Of a DNA stretch of 64,000 nt, positions 52,662 through 64,000 are shown one piece after another. The stretch's first letter is position 1. The number at the start of each line of letters is the position of its first letter. The stretch comes from an uncultured Anaerolineales bacterium. GTDB taxonomy: Bacteria > Chloroflexota > Anaerolineae > Aggregatilineales > Aggregatilineaceae. Where the stretch lies: assembly GCA_937135955.1 (NCBI GenBank), contig CAKZOB010000004.1, forward strand, positions 1 to 64,000. The letters are read 5' to 3'. The notes under the pieces were generated by a model. The model did not search any database. It saw only the letters and a program-made list of their open reading frames with translations, and was not told the origin of the DNA. The position numbers were made by a program, and so were the translations under genes.

Positions 52662-53555
52662 ATGGCGCTCAAAGGCAACCTGGCGGATTTCAGTACCACG
52701 CAGCTCCTCCATCTGATCCATCTGGCCAAGAAGACCGGCACCCTGCACCTCTACGAACCGGTAGTGACCAAGGAAATGATCACCGATGGCGCAGGGAACA
52801 AACGCCCGAAGGTGATCCCCGGCAAAGAGCGAGCGACGCTCTCCTTTCAAGACGGGCAATTGATCCTGGCAACACTGGGTCACGAAGACGGCTACCTGGC
52901 CAGCGTGCTGCACAAGGCGGGCAAGCTCACCGCCGAACAGGCGCGCGTCATCCGCGAACGCGGCAGCAAGTATTCTGACAAGGCGTTGGCGCTGATGTTG
53001 ATCAACGCCAACTACGTCACCAAGGCAGACATCGTGCGCTGTATCCGCCAGCACACGCTCGACATCGTCTACGACGTGTTCACCTGGAAGCGCGAGCCGT
53101 TCGTCTTCGCCGACAACGAACTGCCCCCGCCAGGGCGCATCACTGTGCCGATCGATCTCAAGAACGTGATCATCGAAGGCACGCGCCGCGCCCAGGAGAT
53201 CGAACCGTTGCTGGAAGAACTGCCCAGCCTCGACCTGGCGCTCAAGTTCCCAGACTCCCCTGGCGACAAGTTCCGCGGGGTGCATCTCAGCGTTCAGGAA
53301 TGGCGCGTGGTGGGCTTTGTCAATCCCAAGAACACCATCCGGCAGATTGCCAAAGCCTGCAACATGACCGATACCGAGATTCGCCGTATCGTCTATGGAC
53401 TGCTACAGGCCGGCCTGGTCGAGCTGGTGCGCCCGCCGAACATGCCCGTGCCCCCGATCCCGACGTCCGACGGCAACCGGCGGATCATCCCGATGGAACC
53501 CGAGATCAAGCGCAGCGTCGTCGAACGGCTGATCGCGCGCATCAAGGAAGCCTAA
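52662..53555 (+). CDS. DUF4388 (PatA-like) protein
   Basis: A 297-residue cytosolic protein. The start LKGNLADFSTTQLLHLIHLAKKTGTLHLY is the N-terminal DUF4388 signature, with a 30-residue insertion (MITDGAGNKRPKVIPGK) before ATLSFQDGQLILATLG. The rest includes a winged-helix-like segment (NTIRQIAKACNMTDTEIRRIVYGLLQAGLVEL, about 223-255). DUF4388 proteins commonly stand beside small GTPases and two-component genes in signalling clusters, as here. Confidence 0.88.
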   Translation: MALKGNLADFSTTQLLHLIHLAKKTGTLHLYEPVVTKEMITDGAGNKRPKVIPGKERATLSFQDGQLILATLGHEDGYLASVLHKAGKLTAEQARVIRERGSKYSDKALALMLINANYVTKADIVRCIRQHTLDIVYDVFTWKREPFVFADNELPPPGRITVPIDLKNVIIEGTRRAQEIEPLLEELPSLDLALKFPDSPGDKFRGVHLSVQEWRVVGFVNPKNTIRQIAKACNMTDTEIRRIVYGLLQAGLVELVRPPNMPVPPIPTSDGNRRIIPMEPEIKRSVVERLIARIKEA

Positions 53556-53567
53556 CCCTGTTCATCG

Positions 53568-53593
53568 CAGGGGCAACCCTGGCGTCGCCCCTG
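53568..53593 (+). other. Hairpin between the DUF4388 and GTPase genes
   Basis: CAGGGGC (53568-53574) pairs with 53587-53593, followed by ATTGTATCTTGTTTT. It may partly end transcription in the 84-bp gap. Confidence 0.45.
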
Positions 53594-53639
53594 ATTGTAT
53601 CTTGTTTTGAGGCATCATGGTGAAAGAGTGAAATCAACC

Positions 53640-54191
53640 ATGCCCAAACAGAACGTCAAGGTGGTCGTCACCGGGCCATTCAACGCTGGCAAGACCGAGT
53701 TCATCCGCTCGATCAGCGAGATCGGCGCGGTGACCACCGACGAGAATATCTCCAGAAATGCCCCGGAGTTTGGCATCAAGCAACAAACGACTGTGGCCCT
53801 GGATTTCGGGCGCATCACCGTAGACGACGACCTGGTGCTGTATCTCTTCGGCACGCCGGGGCAGCGGCGCTTCGACTTCATGTGGGACATCCTGGCCGAA
53901 GGCATGTTGGGCTTTGTGGTGATGGTAGATAGCGCCCGACCGGAAACCTTCCGCGAGGCCAAGATCATCCTGGAAACCTTTCGCGCTTATGCCCCCACCC
54001 CCTACGTGGTGGCAGCCAACAAGCAAGACCATCCCGAAGCCTGGTCGCCGCAAGACCTGCGCATTGCGCTGCGCCTTGATGACCACATCAAGCTGTTGCC
54101 GTGCGTGGCAACCGACAAGGAGAGCGTCAAGAACGTACTGCTGGAGCTGCTGTACGCCATCCTGGACGAGATAGATGCCTATTCGCAATAG
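53640..54191 (+). CDS. Small Ras/Arf-like GTPase (MglA relative)
   Basis: 183 residues from the ATG at 53640. P-loop GPFNAGKT (12-19), switch II region LFGTPGQRRFDFMW, G4 motif NKQD (about 124) and a helical C-terminus. Bacterial GTPases of this type work as molecular switches, in motility or polarity (MglA) or in clusters with DUF4388/roadblock proteins. A GAP of the roadblock type is not present here. The start could also be a GTG 12 nt upstream. No lipidation motif is seen. Confidence 0.88.
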   Translation: MPKQNVKVVVTGPFNAGKTEFIRSISEIGAVTTDENISRNAPEFGIKQQTTVALDFGRITVDDDLVLYLFGTPGQRRFDFMWDILAEGMLGFVVMVDSARPETFREAKIILETFRAYAPTPYVVAANKQDHPEAWSPQDLRIALRLDDHIKLLPCVATDKESVKNVLLELLYAILDEIDAYSQ

Positions 54192-54240
54192 CGGGTGGAA
54201 CCTGCACGGGCGCTGACCTGAGCAGGAGGAAGGGGAAGAC

Positions 54241-55065
54241 GTGCCTTCGCTGGTCACTGACCCCGGCATCATTCACTACGAGACATACGGGCGCGGACGC
54301 CCCGTATTGTTATTGCACGGGTGGTTGGGTTCGTGGGAACTCTGGCGCAACACCATCGAAGTCCTGGGCCGCGAGTTCCGCACCTACGCACTCGATTTCT
54401 TCGGGTTCGGCGAATCCGACGTGCTGAGCACTGCCGACCATAGCGCGCAGCGCAGCCGCCTGGACGCCTTCACTGTGCCCACCTATGTCGAGATGGTCAA
54501 TCAGTTCATGGATCGTCTGGGCATTGGCCGGGCACCCCTGGTGGGGCACTCGATGGGCGGCACTGTGTCGTTGAGTATGGCCATCCGCCACCCGGAGAGA
54601 GTGTCGCGCGTGTGCGTGATCGGTTCGCCGATTGACGGCAGTTCGCTCAACCGCTTGCTCCGGTTATCCGGTCAGCGACGAGCGGCCTCGTTCTTCTGGC
54701 TGTTCGGCGGGCGGGGCCTGCGCCTGTTCCTGCGCGTCTACAGCCACTTCATGGCGCGCGACGGGCGGGCCATGAGCCGCATGATCACCAAAGACGTTTC
54801 CAAGATCACCATGGAATCGTTCTTTCAGAGCATCGGCACCCTGCGCAAAACAGACCTGCGCCCCGACCTGCACCGGATAGCCGCTCCGACGCTGGGCATG
54901 TACGGTCAGCGCGACATCATCGTCCGGCCCAGCGAGCATCAGACGCTCAAAGCGGGCGTCCCCCATGCTCAGATCGAGTGGTTTCCGGACGCGGGACACT
55001 TCATCATGATGGACTCGCCGGAGCGGTTTATCAGCACATTGCGGGCATGGCTGCGGGAGGACTGA
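54241..55065 (+). CDS. Alpha/beta-hydrolase
   Basis: A 274-residue hydrolase starting with GTG behind AGGAGGAAGGGG. Oxyanion motif LLLHGWLGSWE, nucleophile S104 in VGHSMGGT, acid D225 in YGQRDII and base H253 in DAGHF form the full triad. A cap of helices lies between about 130 and 200 and is basic (LSGQRRAASFFW). It probably cleaves an ester or a thioester; its position before a lipid-type reductase gene hints at an acyl substrate, which is inference. Confidence 0.9.
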   Translation: MPSLVTDPGIIHYETYGRGRPVLLLHGWLGSWELWRNTIEVLGREFRTYALDFFGFGESDVLSTADHSAQRSRLDAFTVPTYVEMVNQFMDRLGIGRAPLVGHSMGGTVSLSMAIRHPERVSRVCVIGSPIDGSSLNRLLRLSGQRRAASFFWLFGGRGLRLFLRVYSHFMARDGRAMSRMITKDVSKITMESFFQSIGTLRKTDLRPDLHRIAAPTLGMYGQRDIIVRPSEHQTLKAGVPHAQIEWFPDAGHFIMMDSPERFISTLRAWLRED

Positions 55066-55135
55066 GCATCAGCCGGGCAAGACTGGCGGGGTGCCGCGCC
55101 CAACGCCTGTTCTCAGACCCAGAGGGAAAGTCACC

Positions 55136-56518
55136 ATGCCGAAGTTACAGCGAGTGCGCCGCTTCGTTATCGAGGAAGATCACCTGATCGCGCCGTTCAA
55201 TGAACCCGCGCGCGACCTGAGCATCCTCAACAAGCCGCTCAAGCTCCATCACGCCGACGTACTGGACGCTGTGTGTGGGCCAGCCGGAGTCGAGCCGCCG
55301 CTGGCTTCAGTCCACGAGCTGGCCCGCCTGGCAGGGCATGACGATAGTTGCCTGGTCTACCGCGACAATCTGTACTTTGATGAGGAATTCTTCAGCGCGT
55401 TCTACGAACAAGCGCGGGCCAGCGGCGCTCCCTGCCGCGCCGCGCTGCCAGCGAACGATGCCGCCTGGCGCAAGTACGCCGTGCCCCTGTCGCGCCTGAA
55501 ACTCGTCTGCGACCCGGCAGGTAACCCGCTCTACTACCCGCTCGATCTATGGTACTTCCCCAATGGCTACGACGAGCCGCACAAGTGGCAGATGGTGCCC
55601 ATCCCCAGCGACTACAAGGAGATCGGCTACTACAATGTGCCGGACTCGATGGCGAATCTGCGTCCGGGCGGGGCAGACGGCGCAGTGGCCCGCGACCTCG
55701 ACCTGACGCACCTGCTGACTGAGCGCTCGTGCCTGTCCATTGATAGCTGGGTGCACGTCTACTTCGCCAACATCATCCTGGGCGTTTTCTCGCGCGGCAA
55801 GCGCTTCGAGAAGCGCATCAGCGAACACAATTTGCTGGCGCTGCGCATCCTCTTTCGCGCCATCCTCGAACAGAAGCAGGTGCTCACCTGCTCCGAAGTG
55901 GTCAAGGTGGGCGAGGGTACGACGATTGACCCGTCGGCGGTTATCCTTGGCCCAACGACGATCGGGCGTAACTGCTCGATCGGGCCGGGGGTGGTGATTG
56001 ACAACTCGATCATCGGCGACAATGTCAACATCGCCCAGGGCTGTCAGATCATGCTCAGCGTGGTAGGCAGCCATTGTTTTCTGCCCTTCCGCGCGGCGCT
56101 GTTCATGTCCACGGTGATGGAATACTCGATCATCGCGCAGAACACCTGCATTCAGATGGGCGTCATCGGGCGCAACAGCTTCGTGGGCGCGGGGACGACC
56201 TTCACCGACTTCAACCTGTTGCCCGCCCCGCTGCGCGCACTCAACGCCTACGACGAACTGGAGGATACCGGTCAGCCCGTGCTGGGCAGTTGTGTGGGGC
56301 ACAACGCACGACTGGGATCGGGGTTGGTGGTGATGCCCGCCCGCGTGATCGAATCCGACGTGGTGCTTTTCGCCTCGCCGGAGCGGCGCGTCATCAATCG
56401 CAACGTGAGCTACGAGGAGAGCGATCATCACAAGGTGCGCGCCTCTGTCGCCAAACAACATCGTCGCCGCTATCCGCGCGTGGCCGAATCTGAAGAAGCT
56501 TTCCTGGAGCCATGGTGA
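55136..56518 (+). CDS. Left-handed beta-helix (hexapeptide repeat) protein
   Basis: About 460 residues from the ATG at 55136 behind AGAGGGAAAG. The first 250 residues are an unassigned domain (YFPNGYDEPHKWQMVPIPSDYKEIGYYNVPD, DSWVHVYFANIILGVF). From about 265 to 425 runs a left-handed beta-helix with the I-G-x-N hexapeptide pattern (VGEGTTIDPSAVILGPTTIGRNCSIGPGVVIDNSIIGDNVNI). Such helices are found in acyl- and nucleotidyl-transferases, but no substrate is evident. It overlaps the next gene by 7 nt. Confidence 0.8.
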   Translation: MPKLQRVRRFVIEEDHLIAPFNEPARDLSILNKPLKLHHADVLDAVCGPAGVEPPLASVHELARLAGHDDSCLVYRDNLYFDEEFFSAFYEQARASGAPCRAALPANDAAWRKYAVPLSRLKLVCDPAGNPLYYPLDLWYFPNGYDEPHKWQMVPIPSDYKEIGYYNVPDSMANLRPGGADGAVARDLDLTHLLTERSCLSIDSWVHVYFANIILGVFSRGKRFEKRISEHNLLALRILFRAILEQKQVLTCSEVVKVGEGTTIDPSAVILGPTTIGRNCSIGPGVVIDNSIIGDNVNIAQGCQIMLSVVGSHCFLPFRAALFMSTVMEYSIIAQNTCIQMGVIGRNSFVGAGTTFTDFNLLPAPLRALNAYDELEDTGQPVLGSCVGHNARLGSGLVVMPARVIESDVVLFASPERRVINRNVSYEESDHHKVRASVAKQHRRRYPRVAESEEAFLEPW

Positions 56519-57657
56519 GCCAATCCAACGCTGTGAACACACCCGACACCTTCGCTTTCATCATCCATCCCATAGACCCCAAGGCCGATGTCGCCCGCAA
56601 GTATCCCTTGCTGGGCAAGATATTGACTGAGGGACAGATCAACTTCTTCTCGCGCTTCTTCCCGCCGGTCTACATCTCGGAGATCAGCGGCGTGCGCTCC
56701 GTCGCCACTGGTCGGGAGGCGCGCGGGTGGTTTATCGCCTGTCCCTTCACCCCCAAGACCATGCTCAGCCTGCCCGTTGAGACGGTCTACCGCAAGATCG
56801 TCGCCTGCGGGCATCTGGCCGAGCGGCTGGGCGCGCGCATCCTGGGGCTGGGCGCGTATACGTCGGTCGTCGGAGATGCCGGCCTGACCATCGCCCAACG
56901 GCTGGATATTCCTGTCACCAACGGTGACGCCTATACCGTCTACATGGCCGTCGCCGCTGTGCGCGAGGCGGCGCGCCGCATGGGATTGGAGATGAGCGTC
57001 AGCACGGCTGCCGTAGTCGGCGCGACGGGCGTGATCGGTCGGGTGTGTGCGCAGATGCTGGCCCGCGAGGTACCACAACTGATCCTGGTTGGGCGTCGTC
57101 CTGAAGCCCTGGCAGAAGTGCAGGCCCTCTGCGCAGATCAGCGAGCACAGGTGCATAGCAGCACAGACCTGAGCGCCATCTACAGCGCCGACCTGATCCT
57201 GACCGTCACCAGCGCCACGACAGCGGTGATCGAGCCGGAGCACCTCAAGCCGGGGGCGATCGTGTGCGACGTGGCCCGTCCGCGCGACGTATCCCGGCGC
57301 GTGGCGGAGATGCGCGACGACGTGCTGGTCATCGAGGGCGGCATGGTCGAAGTGCCGGGGCCGGTGGACTTCGGCTTCGACTTCGGCTTTCCGCCGGGCA
57401 AAGCCTACGCCTGCATGGCCGAAACAATGGCGCTGGCGCTCGAAGGGCGCTACGAAGACTTCAGCGTGGGCAAGCATATCACTCTGGCCCAGGTCGAGGA
57501 GATCGCCGCGATCGCCGCGCGGCACGGCTTCCGCCTGAGCGGATTTCGCAGCTTCGAGCGCGCCGTCACCGACGCGCAGATCGCCGCCGTGCGCGAGCGC
57601 GCGCAGCGGGCGCAACGCGCTCCGCGCTTCAGACACGGGTCTATGAAAATTGTGTGA
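56512..57657 (+). CDS. Homologue of long-chain acyl-ACP reductase
   Basis: A 381-residue protein whose layout follows cyanobacterial acyl-ACP reductase (AAR): RGWFIACPFTPKTML, LGLGAYTSVVGD, the nucleotide fold VGATGVIGRVCAQMLAREVPQLILVGR, IEGGMVEVPG, and ACMAETMALALEGRYEDFSVGKHITLAQVEEI. C301 in YACMAE stands where AAR has its catalytic Cys. AAR turns fatty acyl-ACP into aldehyde for alkane or alcohol synthesis. No aldehyde oxygenase gene is visible here. The first 50 residues (IIHPIDPKADVARKYPLLGKIL) differ. The reaction is inferred from similarity recalled, not tested. Confidence 0.8.
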   Translation: MVSQSNAVNTPDTFAFIIHPIDPKADVARKYPLLGKILTEGQINFFSRFFPPVYISEISGVRSVATGREARGWFIACPFTPKTMLSLPVETVYRKIVACGHLAERLGARILGLGAYTSVVGDAGLTIAQRLDIPVTNGDAYTVYMAVAAVREAARRMGLEMSVSTAAVVGATGVIGRVCAQMLAREVPQLILVGRRPEALAEVQALCADQRAQVHSSTDLSAIYSADLILTVTSATTAVIEPEHLKPGAIVCDVARPRDVSRRVAEMRDDVLVIEGGMVEVPGPVDFGFDFGFPPGKAYACMAETMALALEGRYEDFSVGKHITLAQVEEIAAIAARHGFRLSGFRSFERAVTDAQIAAVRERAQRAQRAPRFRHGSMKIV

Positions 57658-57913
57658 AACTTCCTGGCTGACGCCTGTGTGGTGAGCCATTGTGTCCTCC
57701 CTGTGGCTGCTCCATCTGCGGTGTCGTGGTATAGTTGTGCTGTCAGAGGCCGGACTCGTTGCCTGCGGCAGGGTTTGTTATGCCTGGGCACAGGGCGCCG
57801 CTGATCCTTAGGCGTTGGGCGACCGGCTCAATACCGGACCGGCAATACAGAGCGGACCGCGGGGCCTGTCGTGCGCCACTTGAGACCCCACATCGCGGGG
57901 AGGTAGGGTTCGG

Positions 57914-58822
57914 ATGGCTAAGGGTAGAATTCTGGTGGTCGAAGATGACTTCGACATCTCCAACATGCTGCGCATCTACTTCAGCGGCCTGGGATACGAC
58001 GTGCAGGTTGCGCCGCGCGGCGAAGAAGCGCTCCAGCTCACGCGCAAACAGCTTCCCCAATTGATCGTGCTGGACATCATGTTGCCGGACATAGACGGTT
58101 ACGAAGTCTGCCGACGGTTACGCTCCACGACCCGTACCAGTCACATCCCCATCATCTTCCTGACGCAGAAAGACGAGCGTAGCGACAAGATCGCCGGTCT
58201 GGAACTGGGCGCGGACGACTACATCACCAAGCCTTTCGACATCGAGGAACTCAAGCTGCGCGTCAAGAATCAGATCGACCGGGCAGAGCGCGATCATTAC
58301 ACCGATCCCAACAGTGGCCTGCCCAGCAGCGCCCTGATCGAAGAGAAGCTGCGCGAGATCATGCGCGAGCCGCAGACCTGGGCCTATCTGGACATCAAGC
58401 TGCAGCACTTCGACGCCTTCAAGGATGTGTATGGCTTCGTGGCAGGCAACGATGTATTGCGCTTCATGGCCCTGCTGATGGGCGAAGTGGTGGACGAACT
58501 GGGCACGCCCAACGACTTCCTGGGGCATACGGGCAGCGACAATTTTGTCCTCATCACCTACTCCGACAAGGCCGAAGCGCTGGTCAAGCGCCTGACCGAT
58601 CGCTTCGCCGAGGAAGTGCTCACCCACTATTCGTTCATTGACCGCGAGCGCGGTTTCATGATGAAAGACGAGGAGAAGATCCCGCTGATGAGCCTGGCCA
58701 TTGGCTGGGTGACCAACGCCAAGCGGCAATTCGCCGACATTCGCGAGATCACCGAGCTGGCCGCCGAAAGTCGTCGTCATGGGGGCGCTCTCCAGGCCAG
58801 CGAAGTCACCACCGAGTGGTGA
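57914..58822 (+). CDS. Response regulator with degenerate GGDEF domain
   Basis: A 302-residue protein: receiver domain with DD at 11-12, D54 and the Lys in DDYITKPFD, then a GGDEF-like domain (about 125-300) in which the active motif reads TGSDN and the DxLxxN-type region is DPNSGLP. It should therefore not make c-di-GMP but may bind it, GTP or a partner. The start follows GGGGAGGTAGGG. A TATAGT at 57730-57735 may be the -10 of this gene. It precedes the GAF protein by 42 nt and is probably its regulator partner. Confidence 0.88.
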   Translation: MAKGRILVVEDDFDISNMLRIYFSGLGYDVQVAPRGEEALQLTRKQLPQLIVLDIMLPDIDGYEVCRRLRSTTRTSHIPIIFLTQKDERSDKIAGLELGADDYITKPFDIEELKLRVKNQIDRAERDHYTDPNSGLPSSALIEEKLREIMREPQTWAYLDIKLQHFDAFKDVYGFVAGNDVLRFMALLMGEVVDELGTPNDFLGHTGSDNFVLITYSDKAEALVKRLTDRFAEEVLTHYSFIDRERGFMMKDEEKIPLMSLAIGWVTNAKRQFADIREITELAAESRRHGGALQASEVTTEW

Positions 58823-58864: not shown

Positions 58865-61800
58865 ATGGTTGAACTATCTCTGATTGTCATCGGTCTGGTT
58901 TTCTTCGCCTGGCTCATGGTGGTCGTGTGGCAGGCACAGCGCGATTGGAGCACCGAACGCGCCGACGAAACACGCCCTTTTGTGCCGCTGCTGCTACCCC
59001 GCAGCGAAGATGCGTTGCTGGTCGCCGAAGGGCGCGGACACATCGTCTTCGCCAACGAGCCAGCACGACGCTGGTTCGGCCTGGACGGCGGGACCCCTCA
59101 CCTGGCTGCCATCACCCGCCTGGTGCGCCCCGTCGAATCGTTCTATGAATTGCTCGCCCAGCCTGGCCATGCTGCGCTGCGCGTGGGCAACCGCCAGGTC
59201 GAAGCCATCTCGCAGGCCATCCCCGGCCCGCAGGGGCAGCGCATGATCGTCCTCATGCGCGAACTCGACGCGACGGCGCATCCCCTCTCCTTCGACTTCG
59301 ATCCAGCCCGCGCATTGGCTGTGGCCGAAGATATCAGCCGGGCGGCTGGCACCAGCCTTGACCTGGCGGGCCTGGTGCGGGCCATCTTCGCCAGCCTGGA
59401 GCCGGTAGTCGCTTTCGACACGGCGGAGATCACCCTGGCCGAACCGGACGGGTCGGTGCTGCGCACTGTCGGCGGGGCGCAGCGCACCCCGCTGGGCGAC
59501 CTGGCCCCCCTGGAATTCCAGGCGAGCGTATACGCGCCCGGTGAGGGCTACACCGGCTGGATGGCGCTCTACCGTCAGCCGTTGCTCATTGACGACATCG
59601 AGGCGCGTGCCGATGTGACGCCCAAGGCCATCGCCGCCGGAGTACGCAGCTACATAGGCGTGCCGTTGCTGGCTGGCGAACGGTGCGTGGGGACGCTAGA
59701 ACTGGGGCACCGTCAGCCGCGCGCCTTCGACCGGCGTGATCTGGCGCTGTTGCAGGCCGTTGCCGGGCAGATTTCCGCGGCCCTGCAGATGGCCCGCTTC
59801 GCCAGCGAACAGGCAGAACGCCTGCGTACGCTCGGCGGCGTGCAACAACTGGCCGAGGTAGCGGGTCGCCTGGACGACATCCGCGCCCTGGCCGGGCAGA
59901 TCTCCAGCCGCATCGCCGGACTGCTGCGGGCCGATGTGTGCGGCGTGCTGCTCTACGACGAAGCAGAGGGCATTCTGCTCGCGCAACCGCCTTTCTATGG
60001 CGCGCCGGACGTGCTGATCGCCGGGCACCGCGTCTCTCCCACTGCCCATCCCGACCTGGCTGCAGTATGGCAGGCCGAGACCCCCTGGCTCACCAACGCC
60101 CCCGACGACGCCCTGCTGCGCGCGCTGGGCCTGGGCGAACTGATGACCGCCATCGCCATACACAGCCTGGCGCTGGTTCCGCTGCTGACCGGTGGACGGC
60201 GTGTGGGTCTGTTGCTGGTTGCCAACGAGCAGCAGAAGGGGCACTTCGACGAAGCCGATCTGCGGCGGCTGACCGTCTTTGCCGGGCAGGCCGCGGTAAT
60301 CCTTGACAATATGCGGCTGCACGAACAGACCCGGCGGCGGGCGCGTGCCCTGGGCGGCCTGCAACAGATCGCGGGGGCGATGGGCGCGGTGCGCAGCCCC
60401 GCCGAACTCTACGGGCAGATCACGGCGCGCATCGCTGCGCTCTTCGAAGCCGAGATGTGCGGCATTCTCCTCTACGACCCTGCCGAACAGGTGCTGGTCA
60501 GTCAGCGCCCCTTCTACGGCATGGACGATGAGGAGCACGTGCGCTTCTACCAGATTCCTTCGCCGCCGGGCAGCCCCGTCGCGCAACTGTGGCAGATGCG
60601 CGACACCTGGGTATGCAACGACCTGCGCCGCGACCCGGCTGCCCTGGAAACCGCTCTGGGGGCGCTGGCCGTCGAAGTGGGGATGCAGCAGACGATGATC
60701 GCCCCGCTGATTGTCGGTGGACGACGGCTCGGCATCATTCAGGTAGCCAACCGGCGCGATGGGCGCGACTTCAGCGACGACGAAGCGCAGTTGCTCTCTA
60801 TCTTCGCCGGACAGGCGGCCATGCTCATTGACAACGCGCGGCTGGTGGGCGAAATGCAGCGCCGCACCCATCACGCCGAAGGGCTGCGGGCAGTGGCCGA
60901 AATTGCCACGCGCGGCACGCCCAGCCTGGAAACGCTGGAAGACGTGCTGGTGGCGGTGGCGAACATCCTGCGTTCGGAAGTGGTGCTGACGGCGCTGGTG
61001 GACGAGCGTAGCGGCGCGTTGGTGCTGGACCCACGTCATGTGTGGGGGGGGGCTCTCGATGAGCCGTATCGCATAGATGCCTACACGCCCGACTTTGAGC
61101 AGAGCGTGCTGGTATCGCGCCGTTCCCTGCTCAGCAATAACCTGGCCGCCGATGCGCGCGTGTTGTCCCCCTATCGCCCGCTGATCGAGCGTCATAGGCT
61201 GCGCGCATGGGTGCAGGTGCCGTTGCTGGTGCAGGACCGCGCCATCGGCGAGCTGATCGTCGCCAACCGTTCCGACGGCGCGCCCTATGACGAAGAAGAC
61301 GCCGATCTGTTGGCGGCCATCGCCACACAGGTCGCCGCGCTGATCGATCGCCTGCGGCTGCAGGCCACCGGCAGCCAGGACCTGCACCTGCGAGTTCAGG
61401 AACTGAGCGCCCTGGGCCGCGTGACCCACGAACTGAGCCGCACGCTGGAACTCGACCGCGTGCTGGAAGTGATCCGCCAGGAAGCGCTGCGCTCCACTGG
61501 CGCAACAGCAGTGAGCATCGTCTTGCTGGCCGAGCGCAGCGAGTGGGAAGCCGAGGACGCCCCTCTGATCGAGCAGCGCTTCGGCGAAGAGCACATCTTC
61601 AACGAACTGACGCCCGCCGAACGCACCGCTATCGTCAGGGGTGAGCGTCTGCTCATAGACGACTACCAGCAAAGCGACTATGAGCCGCAACCGGCCAGCG
61701 CGCGCTCGTCGCTGATCGTGCCCATCTCCTTTGGCAACCAGGTCATCGGTGCCCTGCATCTCTACAGCACACAACCCGCCACCTTCGACCAGCGCGTGAT

Positions 61801-64000
61801 CGAGTTCGCCCAGGCGCTGACCGATCAGGCGACGCTAGCCATCACCAATGCGCGGCGTTACCAGGAACAGATCGAGGCCAACCGCGCTTTGCGCGTGCGC
61901 GCCGAACGCATGGGGCGCATCTTCCGCCTGGGCGAAATGTTCCGCCAGGGAGCCAGCCTGCAGGAACTGCTGGAAGAGGTCGCGCACAGCATCCAGGAAA
62001 CGGTCGGTTTCAATGTGGTGCTGATCAGCGTGGTGGACGAAGAAGCCGGTGTGTTGCGCCGCACCGCTCAGGCCGGGTTGCCGCTCTCGGTTTTCGAGGA
62101 ACTACGCCAGACGGCGCCCCCACTCGAACAGGCGTATAACCTGATGCAAGATAGCTTCCGCGTCAGCAATAGCTACTTCCTGCCCGCCGAAGGCAGCGAA
62201 GAGCTGACCGCCGGACTGCCGACCTACGCGGTGCTGCAAGAGCGCATGGGCAGCGGCCCGCGCGCCTGGCACCCCGACGACCTGTTGCTGGTGCCGCTCA
62301 CTGGCTCTGGTGGGCGCTTGCTGGGGCTGATCAGCGTGGACGAGCCTCAATCGGGTCGCCGCCCCACTTTCGCCATCGTGGAAGCGCTGGAGATTTTCGC
62401 CAGCCAGGCTGCCTTCAGTATCGAGAACTACCGCCTGATCGAGCGCATTCAGCAGGAGGCGGAGGCCACTCGTCGCGAGCGCGACCGCCTGGCCCAACTG
62501 CACCGCGTGGCGACCCGCATTCAGGCCGCCAAAGACATCCCCTCTCGCCTGCAGGTGGTGGCCGACGGCATTCGCGAAGCGGGTTGGGGTCATGTGGTCA
62601 TCACCCTGCGCGACGAACGCCTGGAACCCACCGCATTGATTCAGGCGGGCTATACGTCCGACGAAAACGCGCTCTTGCAGGAGGAGATCATCCCCGGCAC
62701 GGTGTGGCGGCGTTGGCTCAACGATCTGGCCTTTCACGAGCTGCGCATGGGCGCGGGCTACTACCTGCGCTACGACCATCCCTGGGTGCGCGAGAACGTG
62801 CTGAAGGGACAGGTGATCGCCCCGCCCAGTGTGCCCGAAGGGGTCTGGCACCCGCGCGATGTGGTCTACCTGCCGCTGATCGGGCAGGATCAGCAGCGTA
62901 TCATCGGCATCATCACCATGCGCGATCCCCTGGACGGGCGCGCCCCCACCGAAGCGTCGCTGCAACCGTTCGAACTGTTCGCCGCGCACGCCGCGGCGGC
63001 TATTGAGACCGGTCGGCTCTATCAGGAAACGCTGCGCGCCGCCGAGCAGGAACAGCGTCTCAACGAGGTCATGGAGGCGGTGTCGGCCTCTATCCGCCCG
63101 GAGCAGATCGTGGCGGCCATTGCGCGCGGCCTGCAACGGCTGGTGCCCTTCACCCGCATGAGCGTGGCGCTCTACGACGATGTGGCCGGTCATTTCGACG
63201 TGTATCAGGCCGAAGTCACGGGCATCACCGCGCCGGAAGTGGTGCGCGACGTACCTCTGGAAATCAGCGGCACCGCCACCTGGGAAGTCTACCGCGCTGC
63301 CACAGCGCGTTTCTTCCGGCTGGAGCGTCAGGCCGACGCCCGCGAGCAGTTCAGCGACCTGCGCGCCTGGTATGATGCAGGCGAGCGCAGCACGCTGCTG
63401 GTGCCGATGATCTCCGGCGTGCAGGCGATCGGTGTGCTGCGCCTGGGCACAGAACTGGAGAATGCTTTTGGTTTTGAGGAAAACCACGAACTGATCCAGC
63501 GCCTGGCCAATCTGTCCGCCGTATCGCTGGAGAACGTACAACTCTTCGCGCGCGCTCAGGAACGCGCCGCCGCCCTCGACGCACAGGCCCAACGCATGGC
63601 GCTGCTCAACCGCGTGGCGCTGGCGCTGGCGCAAACCCTCGACCTGGAGAACATCTTCGAGATCGCCCTGCGCGAGGCGGCCATCTCCCTGGGCATCACC
63701 GACGGCGCAGCCCTGCAGATCGACCCCGAGCGCAACCTGGCGCAGGTAGTCGTCGAATATCCGCGCGGCGACGCCCCGCCGGAACTGATGCTCGACATAG
63801 CGCACAACGCTGTGTTACGCCTGATCCAGGACGAACTTATCCCCATCATCGTCGAACAGGTATCCGGCGACCCGCTCTACGAAGCCTTGCGCGCGTGGCT
63901 GCGCCGCGAGGATGTCTATCGCTCATTGCTGGTGCCGCTGGTAGCAGGCGGACAGGCGATCGGCGTGCTGTGCCTGAATGCGCTGGCTGCAGAGCGTATC
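58865..64000 (+). CDS. Giant multi-GAF sensor protein, cut by the window edge
   Basis: An open frame of at least 1712 codons from the ATG at 58865, still open at 64000. An N-terminal membrane helix (LIVIGLVFFAWLMVVVWQ) and a PAS-like stretch (about 45-140) are followed by about eight or nine GAF domains, each near 150-170 residues and recognisable by endings such as GLLLVANEQQKGHFDEADLRRL, LGIIQVANRR, IGELIVANR and LLGLISVDE. Helical linkers separate them. The output domain (kinase or other) must lie beyond the window. The frame is unbroken across a nine-G run near 61044-61052. It probably senses small ligands and signals through the regulator before it. Confidence 0.92.
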   Translation, partial: MVELSLIVIGLVFFAWLMVVVWQAQRDWSTERADETRPFVPLLLPRSEDALLVAEGRGHIVFANEPARRWFGLDGGTPHLAAITRLVRPVESFYELLAQPGHAALRVGNRQVEAISQAIPGPQGQRMIVLMRELDATAHPLSFDFDPARALAVAEDISRAAGTSLDLAGLVRAIFASLEPVVAFDTAEITLAEPDGSVLRTVGGAQRTPLGDLAPLEFQASVYAPGEGYTGWMALYRQPLLIDDIEARADVTPKAIAAGVRSYIGVPLLAGERCVGTLELGHRQPRAFDRRDLALLQAVAGQISAALQMARFASEQAERLRTLGGVQQLAEVAGRLDDIRALAGQISSRIAGLLRADVCGVLLYDEAEGILLAQPPFYGAPDVLIAGHRVSPTAHPDLAAVWQAETPWLTNAPDDALLRALGLGELMTAIAIHSLALVPLLTGGRRVGLLLVANEQQKGHFDEADLRRLTVFAGQAAVILDNMRLHEQTRRRARALGGLQQIAGAMGAVRSPAELYGQITARIAALFEAEMCGILLYDPAEQVLVSQRPFYGMDDEEHVRFYQIPSPPGSPVAQLWQMRDTWVCNDLRRDPAALETALGALAVEVGMQQTMIAPLIVGGRRLGIIQVANRRDGRDFSDDEAQLLSIFAGQAAMLIDNARLVGEMQRRTHHAEGLRAVAEIATRGTPSLETLEDVLVAVANILRSEVVLTALVDERSGALVLDPRHVWGGALDEPYRIDAYTPDFEQSVLVSRRSLLSNNLAADARVLSPYRPLIERHRLRAWVQVPLLVQDRAIGELIVANRSDGAPYDEEDADLLAAIATQVAALIDRLRLQATGSQDLHLRVQELSALGRVTHELSRTLELDRVLEVIRQEALRSTGATAVSIVLLAERSEWEAEDAPLIEQRFGEEHIFNELTPAERTAIVRGERLLIDDYQQSDYEPQPASARSSLIVPISFGNQVIGALHLYSTQPATFDQRVIEFAQALTDQATLAITNARRYQEQIEANRALRVRAERMGRIFRLGEMFRQGASLQELLEEVAHSIQETVGFNVVLISVVDEEAGVLRRTAQAGLPLSVFEELRQTAPPLEQAYNLMQDSFRVSNSYFLPAEGSEELTAGLPTYAVLQERMGSGPRAWHPDDLLLVPLTGSGGRLLGLISVDEPQSGRRPTFAIVEALEIFASQAAFSIENYRLIERIQQEAEATRRERDRLAQLHRVATRIQAAKDIPSRLQVVADGIREAGWGHVVITLRDERLEPTALIQAGYTSDENALLQEEIIPGTVWRRWLNDLAFHELRMGAGYYLRYDHPWVRENVLKGQVIAPPSVPEGVWHPRDVVYLPLIGQDQQRIIGIITMRDPLDGRAPTEASLQPFELFAAHAAAAIETGRLYQETLRAAEQEQRLNEVMEAVSASIRPEQIVAAIARGLQRLVPFTRMSVALYDDVAGHFDVYQAEVTGITAPEVVRDVPLEISGTATWEVYRAATARFFRLERQADAREQFSDLRAWYDAGERSTLLVPMISGVQAIGVLRLGTELENAFGFEENHELIQRLANLSAVSLENVQLFARAQERAAALDAQAQRMALLNRVALALAQTLDLENIFEIALREAAISLGITDGAALQIDPERNLAQVVVEYPRGDAPPELMLDIAHNAVLRLIQDELIPIIVEQVSGDPLYEALRAWLRREDVYRSLLVPLVAGGQAIGVLCLNALAAERI

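Follow-up and report, generated by a model that had tools for sequence, protein, structure and literature searches.

The reductase gene and its sequence relatives

The window analysed here is a stretch of 64,000 nucleotides from an uncultured Anaerolineales bacterium (GenBank assembly GCA_937135955.1, contig CAKZOB010000004.1, positions 1 to 64,000 of the forward strand), and the gene of interest (P0001) encodes a homologue of cyanobacterial acyl-(acyl carrier protein; ACP) reductase, AAR. The genome belongs to the Chloroflexota (Anaerolineae), in agreement with the initial annotation, which had suspected a non-cyanobacterial host, and 79 of the 80 named homologue loci bear Chloroflexota-group names. 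The reductase gene is present as a single copy in its own genome (4.28 Mb in 93 contigs, stated completeness 100). Its main features, with AAR residues numbered according to excerpts of PMC7089970, are as follows.

56512..57657, + strand: gene for the putative AAR-like thioester reductase (P0001), 381 amino acids (aa), identified by sequence, family and structure searches
57019..57039, + strand: codons of the dinucleotide loop GATGVIG (residues 170–176), aligned with AAR GATGDIG (162–168)
57412..57414, + strand: Cys301 codon TGC, predicted acyl-thioester nucleophile, invariant in 52/52 aligned homologues

The homology to AAR extends far beyond chance. In a phmmer comparison with solved structures, two kinds of long match were obtained, PigE (4ppm, 1e-33) and the S. 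elongatus AAR (6jzq, 1.6e-29), and a profile built from 52 homologues matched the same two structures at 2.9e-49 and 1.7e-40, respectively. The best NCBIfam score was also that of PigE (NF053554, 217.2 bits, 4.4e-64), covering model positions 2–362 of 837 only and remaining below the 850-bit cut-off of that model. The search with the AAR-family profile that the initial annotation had proposed returned 126.5 bits for TIGR04058, which is under the required 449.7 bits; searching the genome gave 126.4 bits, and of 14 control genomes one exceeded the cut-off. Judged by these curated models, the reductase is neither an AAR nor a PigE. The Pfam scan yielded Shikimate_DH as the sole family above cut-off, covering the Rossmann part, and found no aminotransferase domain, while the score for hemA (glutamyl-tRNA reductase) was 36.1 bits, under its cut-off of 209.55. 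Of 16 plasmid-borne matches of the superfamily, 14 cover more than half of the window protein, and these share 28–37 % identity with it.

Predicted active-site and cofactor residues

Residue conservation was assessed in a 52-row alignment that comprises the window protein and 51 of the 80 locus proteins (those omitted include L040, L043 and L058, represented only by 15-aa fragments). The cysteine that the initial annotation had named as the site of the thioester, Cys301, aligns on AAR Cys294 in the phmmer, profile and MAFFT alignments. The available text of PMC7089970 describes Cys294 as the carrier of the acyl group, and excerpts from work on other thioester-reducing relatives point to the same cysteine in PigE (Cys296, PMC8341465) and TamH (C887, PMC9594044). 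Among the six cysteines of the reductase, only Cys301, which lies within the sequence YACMAETM, is invariant in the 52 aligned homologues, as is E304; the other five cysteines vary. An ACMAET-type motif surrounds Cys301 at all 80 loci.

The nucleotide-binding loop, which had also been claimed to be kept, is intact: G170, A171, G173 and G176 are each conserved in 52/52 homologues, preserving the GxxGxxG pattern. Of the three AAR residues at the NADPH 2'-phosphate, two are matched by basic residues in the window protein, with R195 (R in 50/52, K in 2/52) aligning with AAR R189, and K321 (K in 50/52, R in 2/52) with AAR R314.

Predicted fold

The AlphaFold model built from the 52-row alignment (pLDDT 89.7, pTM 0.89) was compared with solved structures. 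In the Foldseek search, the top seven rows were all AAR chains (best 1.3e-22, TM 0.82 by target), followed by carmabin TAD. VIA-align superimposed 324 residues (model residues 13–354) on AAR 6jzy, which was solved with NADPH and stearyl, at Z 35.1 and 2.6 Å, and gave Z 33–34 for the carmabin TAD domain. Outside AAR and TAD, the score dropped to Z 13.9 (glutamyl-tRNA reductase and other Rossmann enzymes). The predicted model has the three-domain AAR fold. Given the Z of 35.1 to AAR and the subsequent drop to 13.9, neither of the outcomes that the initial annotation would have counted as a refutation, a different fold or best matches in another pathway, was seen at the level of the fold.

Distribution and phylogeny

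Among order-level relatives, 53 of 61 genomes (own genome included) contain a match at E≤1e-3, although that of G023 (1.1e-6) is a Rossmann-fold match only. In a sample of the whole phylum, 69 of 400 genomes match at E≤1e-40, a cut-off of our own choosing, and some genomes of this sample hold two reductase matches. Some lineages of the phylum have matches of 40–46 % identity, most of them inside a much longer open frame. The subfamily is stand-alone in Anaerolineae and mostly fused behind a domain of approximately 300 aa in the other Chloroflexota families sampled. This N-terminal domain is shared by all seven fused proteins compared (L111, L112, L113, L114, L115, L116 and L122), and it had no Pfam match in any of the five that were scanned. 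A profile comparison addressing the idea of a degenerate AAR copy gave a probability of 0.4 %, though on very thin profiles (Neff 1.9). The domain may resemble proteins named 'quinate 5-dehydrogenase'.

Several loci stand apart from this pattern. One locus (L064) is a contig labelled Pleurocapsa minor that carries a 72 % identical copy, and is likely to be a mislabelled or contaminated bin rather than evidence of a cyanobacterial gene. Three further Chloroflexota proteins are more distant relatives. At L123:5018-7567, a class III aminotransferase is fused to an AAR-like domain, with the domains arranged as in TamH. The reductase-like gene at L118:5331-6404 adjoins a gene for an AMP-binding enzyme, and that at L124:3003-4151 adjoins a gene for a thiamine-diphosphate enzyme.

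Phylogenetic analysis was based on 30 rows, namely 13 Anaerolineae rows of the homologue alignment and 17 others, with TAD dropped and a single cyanobacterial AAR included. The Chloroflexota subfamily is set apart from the PigE clade (100/100) and also from a clade formed by the cyanobacterial AAR, L118 and L124 (98/95). Support for the deepest fork within the subfamily is weak (81/47), and the tree has a long AAR branch and no settled root. On the sequence and tree evidence, the reductase represents a subfamily of its own, widespread in Chloroflexota, within an enzyme superfamily that is already known. Since AAR-type reductases from beyond the cyanobacteria (PigE, TamH) have already been published, it constitutes a new subfamily and not a new kind of enzyme.

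Gene neighbourhood

The genes that surround the reductase in the window are listed below; the counts refer to the 80 named homologue loci and include a few weak, partial or opposite-strand matches.

52662..53555, + strand: DUF4388 protein (PF14332, 1.1e-19), in 38/80 loci
53595..54191, + strand: small GTPase of the prokaryotic Ras type (ATP_bind_1, Arf, Ras), likely start at the in-frame ATG 53640, in 39/80 loci
54241..55065, + strand: alpha/beta hydrolase (PF00561, 3.2e-35), in 41/80 loci
55091..56518, + strand: GlmU/ST0452-like hexapeptide protein (left-handed beta-helix) whose N-terminal part has a nucleotidyltransferase-like fold, directly upstream of the reductase in most loci
57914..58822, + strand: response regulator receiver with a C-terminal GGDEF-like domain, in 65/80 loci (a few weak or partial)
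58865..64000, + strand: very long multi-GAF sensor protein, 1712 aa up to the end of the window, where the frame is still open

The block of genes from DUF4388 through the small GTPase, alpha/beta hydrolase, hexapeptide protein and reductase to the response regulator/GGDEF protein (52662–58822) recurs in many Anaerolineae. A GlmU-like hexapeptide gene lies near the reductase in 69 of the 80 loci, and three of the other 11 have too little upstream DNA to judge. The spacing is tight, with a median gap of 4 nucleotides between the hexapeptide stop and the reductase start and an overlap in 14 of the 61 loci measured; in the window itself the overlap amounts to 7 nucleotides. Gaps were measured at 61 of 67 hexapeptide loci and, for the response regulator, at 56 of 59. 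When only loci with sufficient flanking sequence are considered, DUF4388, GTPase and hydrolase occur together in 31 of the 54 with more than 5.5 kb upstream, and the response regulator in 55 of the 68 with more than 2.5 kb downstream. Across the 400-genome sample, the reductase and the hexapeptide protein co-occur in 64 genomes (totals of 69 and 70, respectively); the corresponding Fisher p of 1e-60 takes no account of shared descent and should not be taken as a probability.

A V4R-type gene was recorded in 19 of the 80 loci. The own genome contains a 45 % identical homologue of the L119 V4R protein (PF02830, 1.5e-10) on another contig (G000:C64:34201-34776). Neither this homologue nor the L127 copy reaches Pfam V4R alone; for these two the label is based on homology to the L119 protein or, in the case of L127, on its N-terminal sequence as judged by eye. 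The largest cluster of additional neighbours (42/80 loci) was considered as a new family and rejected, as its open reading frames, judged from the window, look antisense to the downstream multi-GAF gene.

The hexapeptide gene has a likelier start at the in-frame ATG 55136. The model of its product (pLDDT 79.2) resembles archaeal bifunctional sugar-1-phosphate nucleotidylyltransferases (ST0452, Z 25.5, 328 aligned residues). In an alignment of the window's hexapeptide protein with 39 of 67 locus proteins, the beta-helix part is well conserved, and the invariant residues include VGHN positions in the H404 region, such as N405; this motif may be comparable to that of the catalytic His of GlmU. 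The N-terminal nucleotidyltransferase-like domain appears to lack the usual GxGxR-type signature, and the protein may be a degenerate nucleotidyltransferase.

Proposed function

Most likely the protein is a stand-alone, NAD(P)H-dependent acyl-thioester reductase that releases an aldehyde and represents a distinct Chloroflexota subfamily within the AAR/PigE/TamH superfamily; we assign this reading a probability of about 0.72. The homology, the fold, the conserved loop and Cys, the linked genes and the negative search for aldehyde-deformylating oxygenase (ADO) are observations, whereas the reductase activity, the donor (acyl-ACP or acyl-CoA), the acyl chain and the fate of the aldehyde are inferred. 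By analogy with AAR, Cys301 would take over the acyl group from its ACP or CoA carrier, and NAD(P)H at the GATGVIG loop (170–176) would supply the hydride that releases this group as an aldehyde. Such a scheme is consistent with the ping-pong mechanism described in the available text of PMC7089970, in which acyl transfer to the Cys precedes hydride transfer from NADPH, as well as with the reported reduction of a thioester to an aldehyde by PigE (excerpts of PMC8341465) and the action of TamH on acyl-ACP with NADH (excerpts of PMC9594044). The aldehyde is probably accepted by an enzyme with an activity coupled to the neighbouring hexapeptide, GTPase and response-regulator genes.

A number of observations weigh against this assignment. 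The identity to AAR is only approximately 28–30 %. The counterpart of AAR R193 is A199 (A in 38/52, K in 6/52), a mostly non-basic position, while that of AAR Tyr247 is Arg256, invariant in 52/52 homologues (Leu in PigE in the MAFFT alignment); according to excerpts of PMC7089970, Tyr247 is needed for substrate binding, and its Ala mutant loses binding of ADO. In the accessible part of PMC8341465, one assay of purified PigE on thioesters showed no NAD(P)H signal, and in that of PMC9594044, TamH did not accept acyl-CoA; conservation of the Cys is thus no guarantee of simple turnover. The linkage is also imperfect. Six of the 400 genomes contain the hexapeptide protein without the reductase and five the reverse, and all six hexapeptide loci sampled from beyond the class have the response regulator, and not the reductase, next to the hexapeptide gene. 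Within the class, L129, L131, L134 and L135 carry the hexapeptide, DUF4388, GTPase and hydrolase genes without the reductase. As the module exists in several genomes without the reductase, their linkage is not obligate, and the hexapeptide loci that lack it indicate that the reductase is a frequent companion of the hexapeptide/response-regulator pair rather than part of its core. That pair may be older.

The initial annotation had gone further, expecting the protein, if active, to make fatty aldehydes or alcohols outside the cyanobacteria. Long-chain products of that kind are not supported: the score is below the TIGR04058 cut-off, an invariant Arg stands at the position of Tyr247, the ADO search was negative, and none of the adjacent genes defines the acyl chain, the length of which is not inferable. 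A narrower form of our reading, a strict-AAR long-chain fatty acyl-ACP reductase feeding Anaerolineae fatty alcohols, wax esters or ether lipids, is possible but doubtful. The structure closest to the model is AAR in complex with stearyl, and a single-copy gene retained by most relatives within the order points to a house-keeping lipid; on the other hand, the protein reaches only 126.5 of the 449.7 bits set for TIGR04058, scores higher for PigE (217 bits) and has lost Y247. The wax-ester synthase family PF03007 had no match in the genome nor in any control genome, and PF07993 (fatty acyl-CoA reductase type), with 14 weak to moderate matches in the genome, was also matched in 14/14 controls; both results are hence uninformative. 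The alternative of a PigE/TamH-like reductase that acts on an acyl thioester from specialized metabolism, shorter or modified, with the aldehyde then aminated or condensed, seems rather unlikely. PigE does provide the best NCBIfam score (4.4e-64) and the best PDB sequence match (4ppm), and Chloroflexota relatives are found fused to an aminotransferase (L123), beside a thiamine-diphosphate enzyme (L124) or behind an AMP-binding enzyme (L118). However, L118 and L124 cluster with AAR, outside the window subfamily, the window protein has no aminotransferase domain, none of the five scanned neighbours is a biosynthetic-cluster enzyme of that type, and presence in most relatives is atypical of a specialized metabolite.

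The recurrent linkage with DUF4388, the GTPase, the response regulator/GGDEF protein and, in 19/80 loci, the V4R-type protein invites a regulatory interpretation, in which the protein turns over little and acts as a sensor, binding NAD(P)H and acyl groups and signalling the state of acyl thioesters to the GTPase/response-regulator module. V4R domains are indeed thought to bind hydrophobic ligands and to signal (excerpts of PMC2253512). Nevertheless, nothing of the catalytic Cys or the dinucleotide loop has been lost, and a pure sensor would hardly need either, making this explanation improbable. The most novel idea, itself unlikely, is that the reductase serves as the metabolic arm of a Chloroflexota acyl-lipid signalling module, making, sensing or clearing a fatty aldehyde or acyl-thioester signal. 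Its partners would be the small GTPase with DUF4388, the alpha/beta hydrolase (possibly a thioesterase), the V4R-type protein, the GlmU-like hexapeptide protein and the response regulator/GGDEF protein, and the V4R-type hydrophobic-ligand protein would belong to the gene block in some lineages and be encoded elsewhere in the genome in the present one. A dehydrogenase of another pathway, of the shikimate, amino acid or glutamyl-tRNA reductase type, is very unlikely and largely refuted: Shikimate_DH is the sole Pfam name above cut-off, but only the middle domain matches, such folds score Z 13 to 14 where AAR scores 35, and hemA reaches 36 of 209.55 bits. Least probable of all is a cyanobacterial-style alkane enzyme pairing AAR with ADO. 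The homology to AAR would favour it, but the ADO search envisaged in the initial annotation found no PF11266 match in the genome (completeness 100) at E≤1e-3, the S. elongatus control being positive, so that the known ADO route to alkanes is unavailable here; together with Arg at the Y247 position, this contradicts such a role for the own genome.

If the AAR-related, stand-alone acyl-thioester reductase is accepted as the preferred reading, an AAR-fold thioester reductase would be widely conserved across much of the Chloroflexota, away from alkane synthesis and outside the described transaminase fusions. The subfamily may also serve as a source of stand-alone candidate aldehyde-forming enzymes, some of them inferred to come from thermophile-like lineages. 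The genes that recur beside it suggest that aldehyde chemistry is connected with signalling of the GTPase and two-component type; were the signalling module real, it would tie acyl-thioester chemistry to control by a small GTPase in bacteria.

Comparison with known systems

The open-access literature searched contains no description of the Chloroflexota reductase subfamily; most subscription papers lay outside that search, and absence is not proven. The closest known protein by sequence is the N-terminal thioester reductase domain of PigE from prodigiosin synthesis (4ppm, NF053554), with which the window protein shares CMAET around the Cys and an HGF motif. PigE is fused to a class III aminotransferase, whereas the window protein is single-domain, and its Gly loop reads GYPGSIC instead of GATGVIG. 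The C-terminal reductase domain of TamH is likewise an AAR-like thioester reductase domain with the Cys, but is fused to a transaminase, unlike the window protein; most plasmid matches from this superfamily carry a class III aminotransferase annotation, and COG5322 has been used as a name for a transaminase-fused relative (excerpts of PMC10829540). Carmabin TAD (9e4s/9e4u/9e50/9e56/9e4x), the entry titles of which mention NADH and a Cys2238-dephospho-CoA disulfide, has the same overall fold, although the identity is 18–19 % and the sequence match spans profile positions 83–277 only. Cyanobacterial AAR (6jzq/6jzu/6jzy/6jzz; TIGR04058) differs from the window protein in Y247, replaced by R, and in R193, mostly replaced by A, as well as in the ADO partner, which was not found in the genome; the two nevertheless share the whole fold, the GATGxIG loop, the thioester Cys and two of the three basic residues at the NADPH phosphate.

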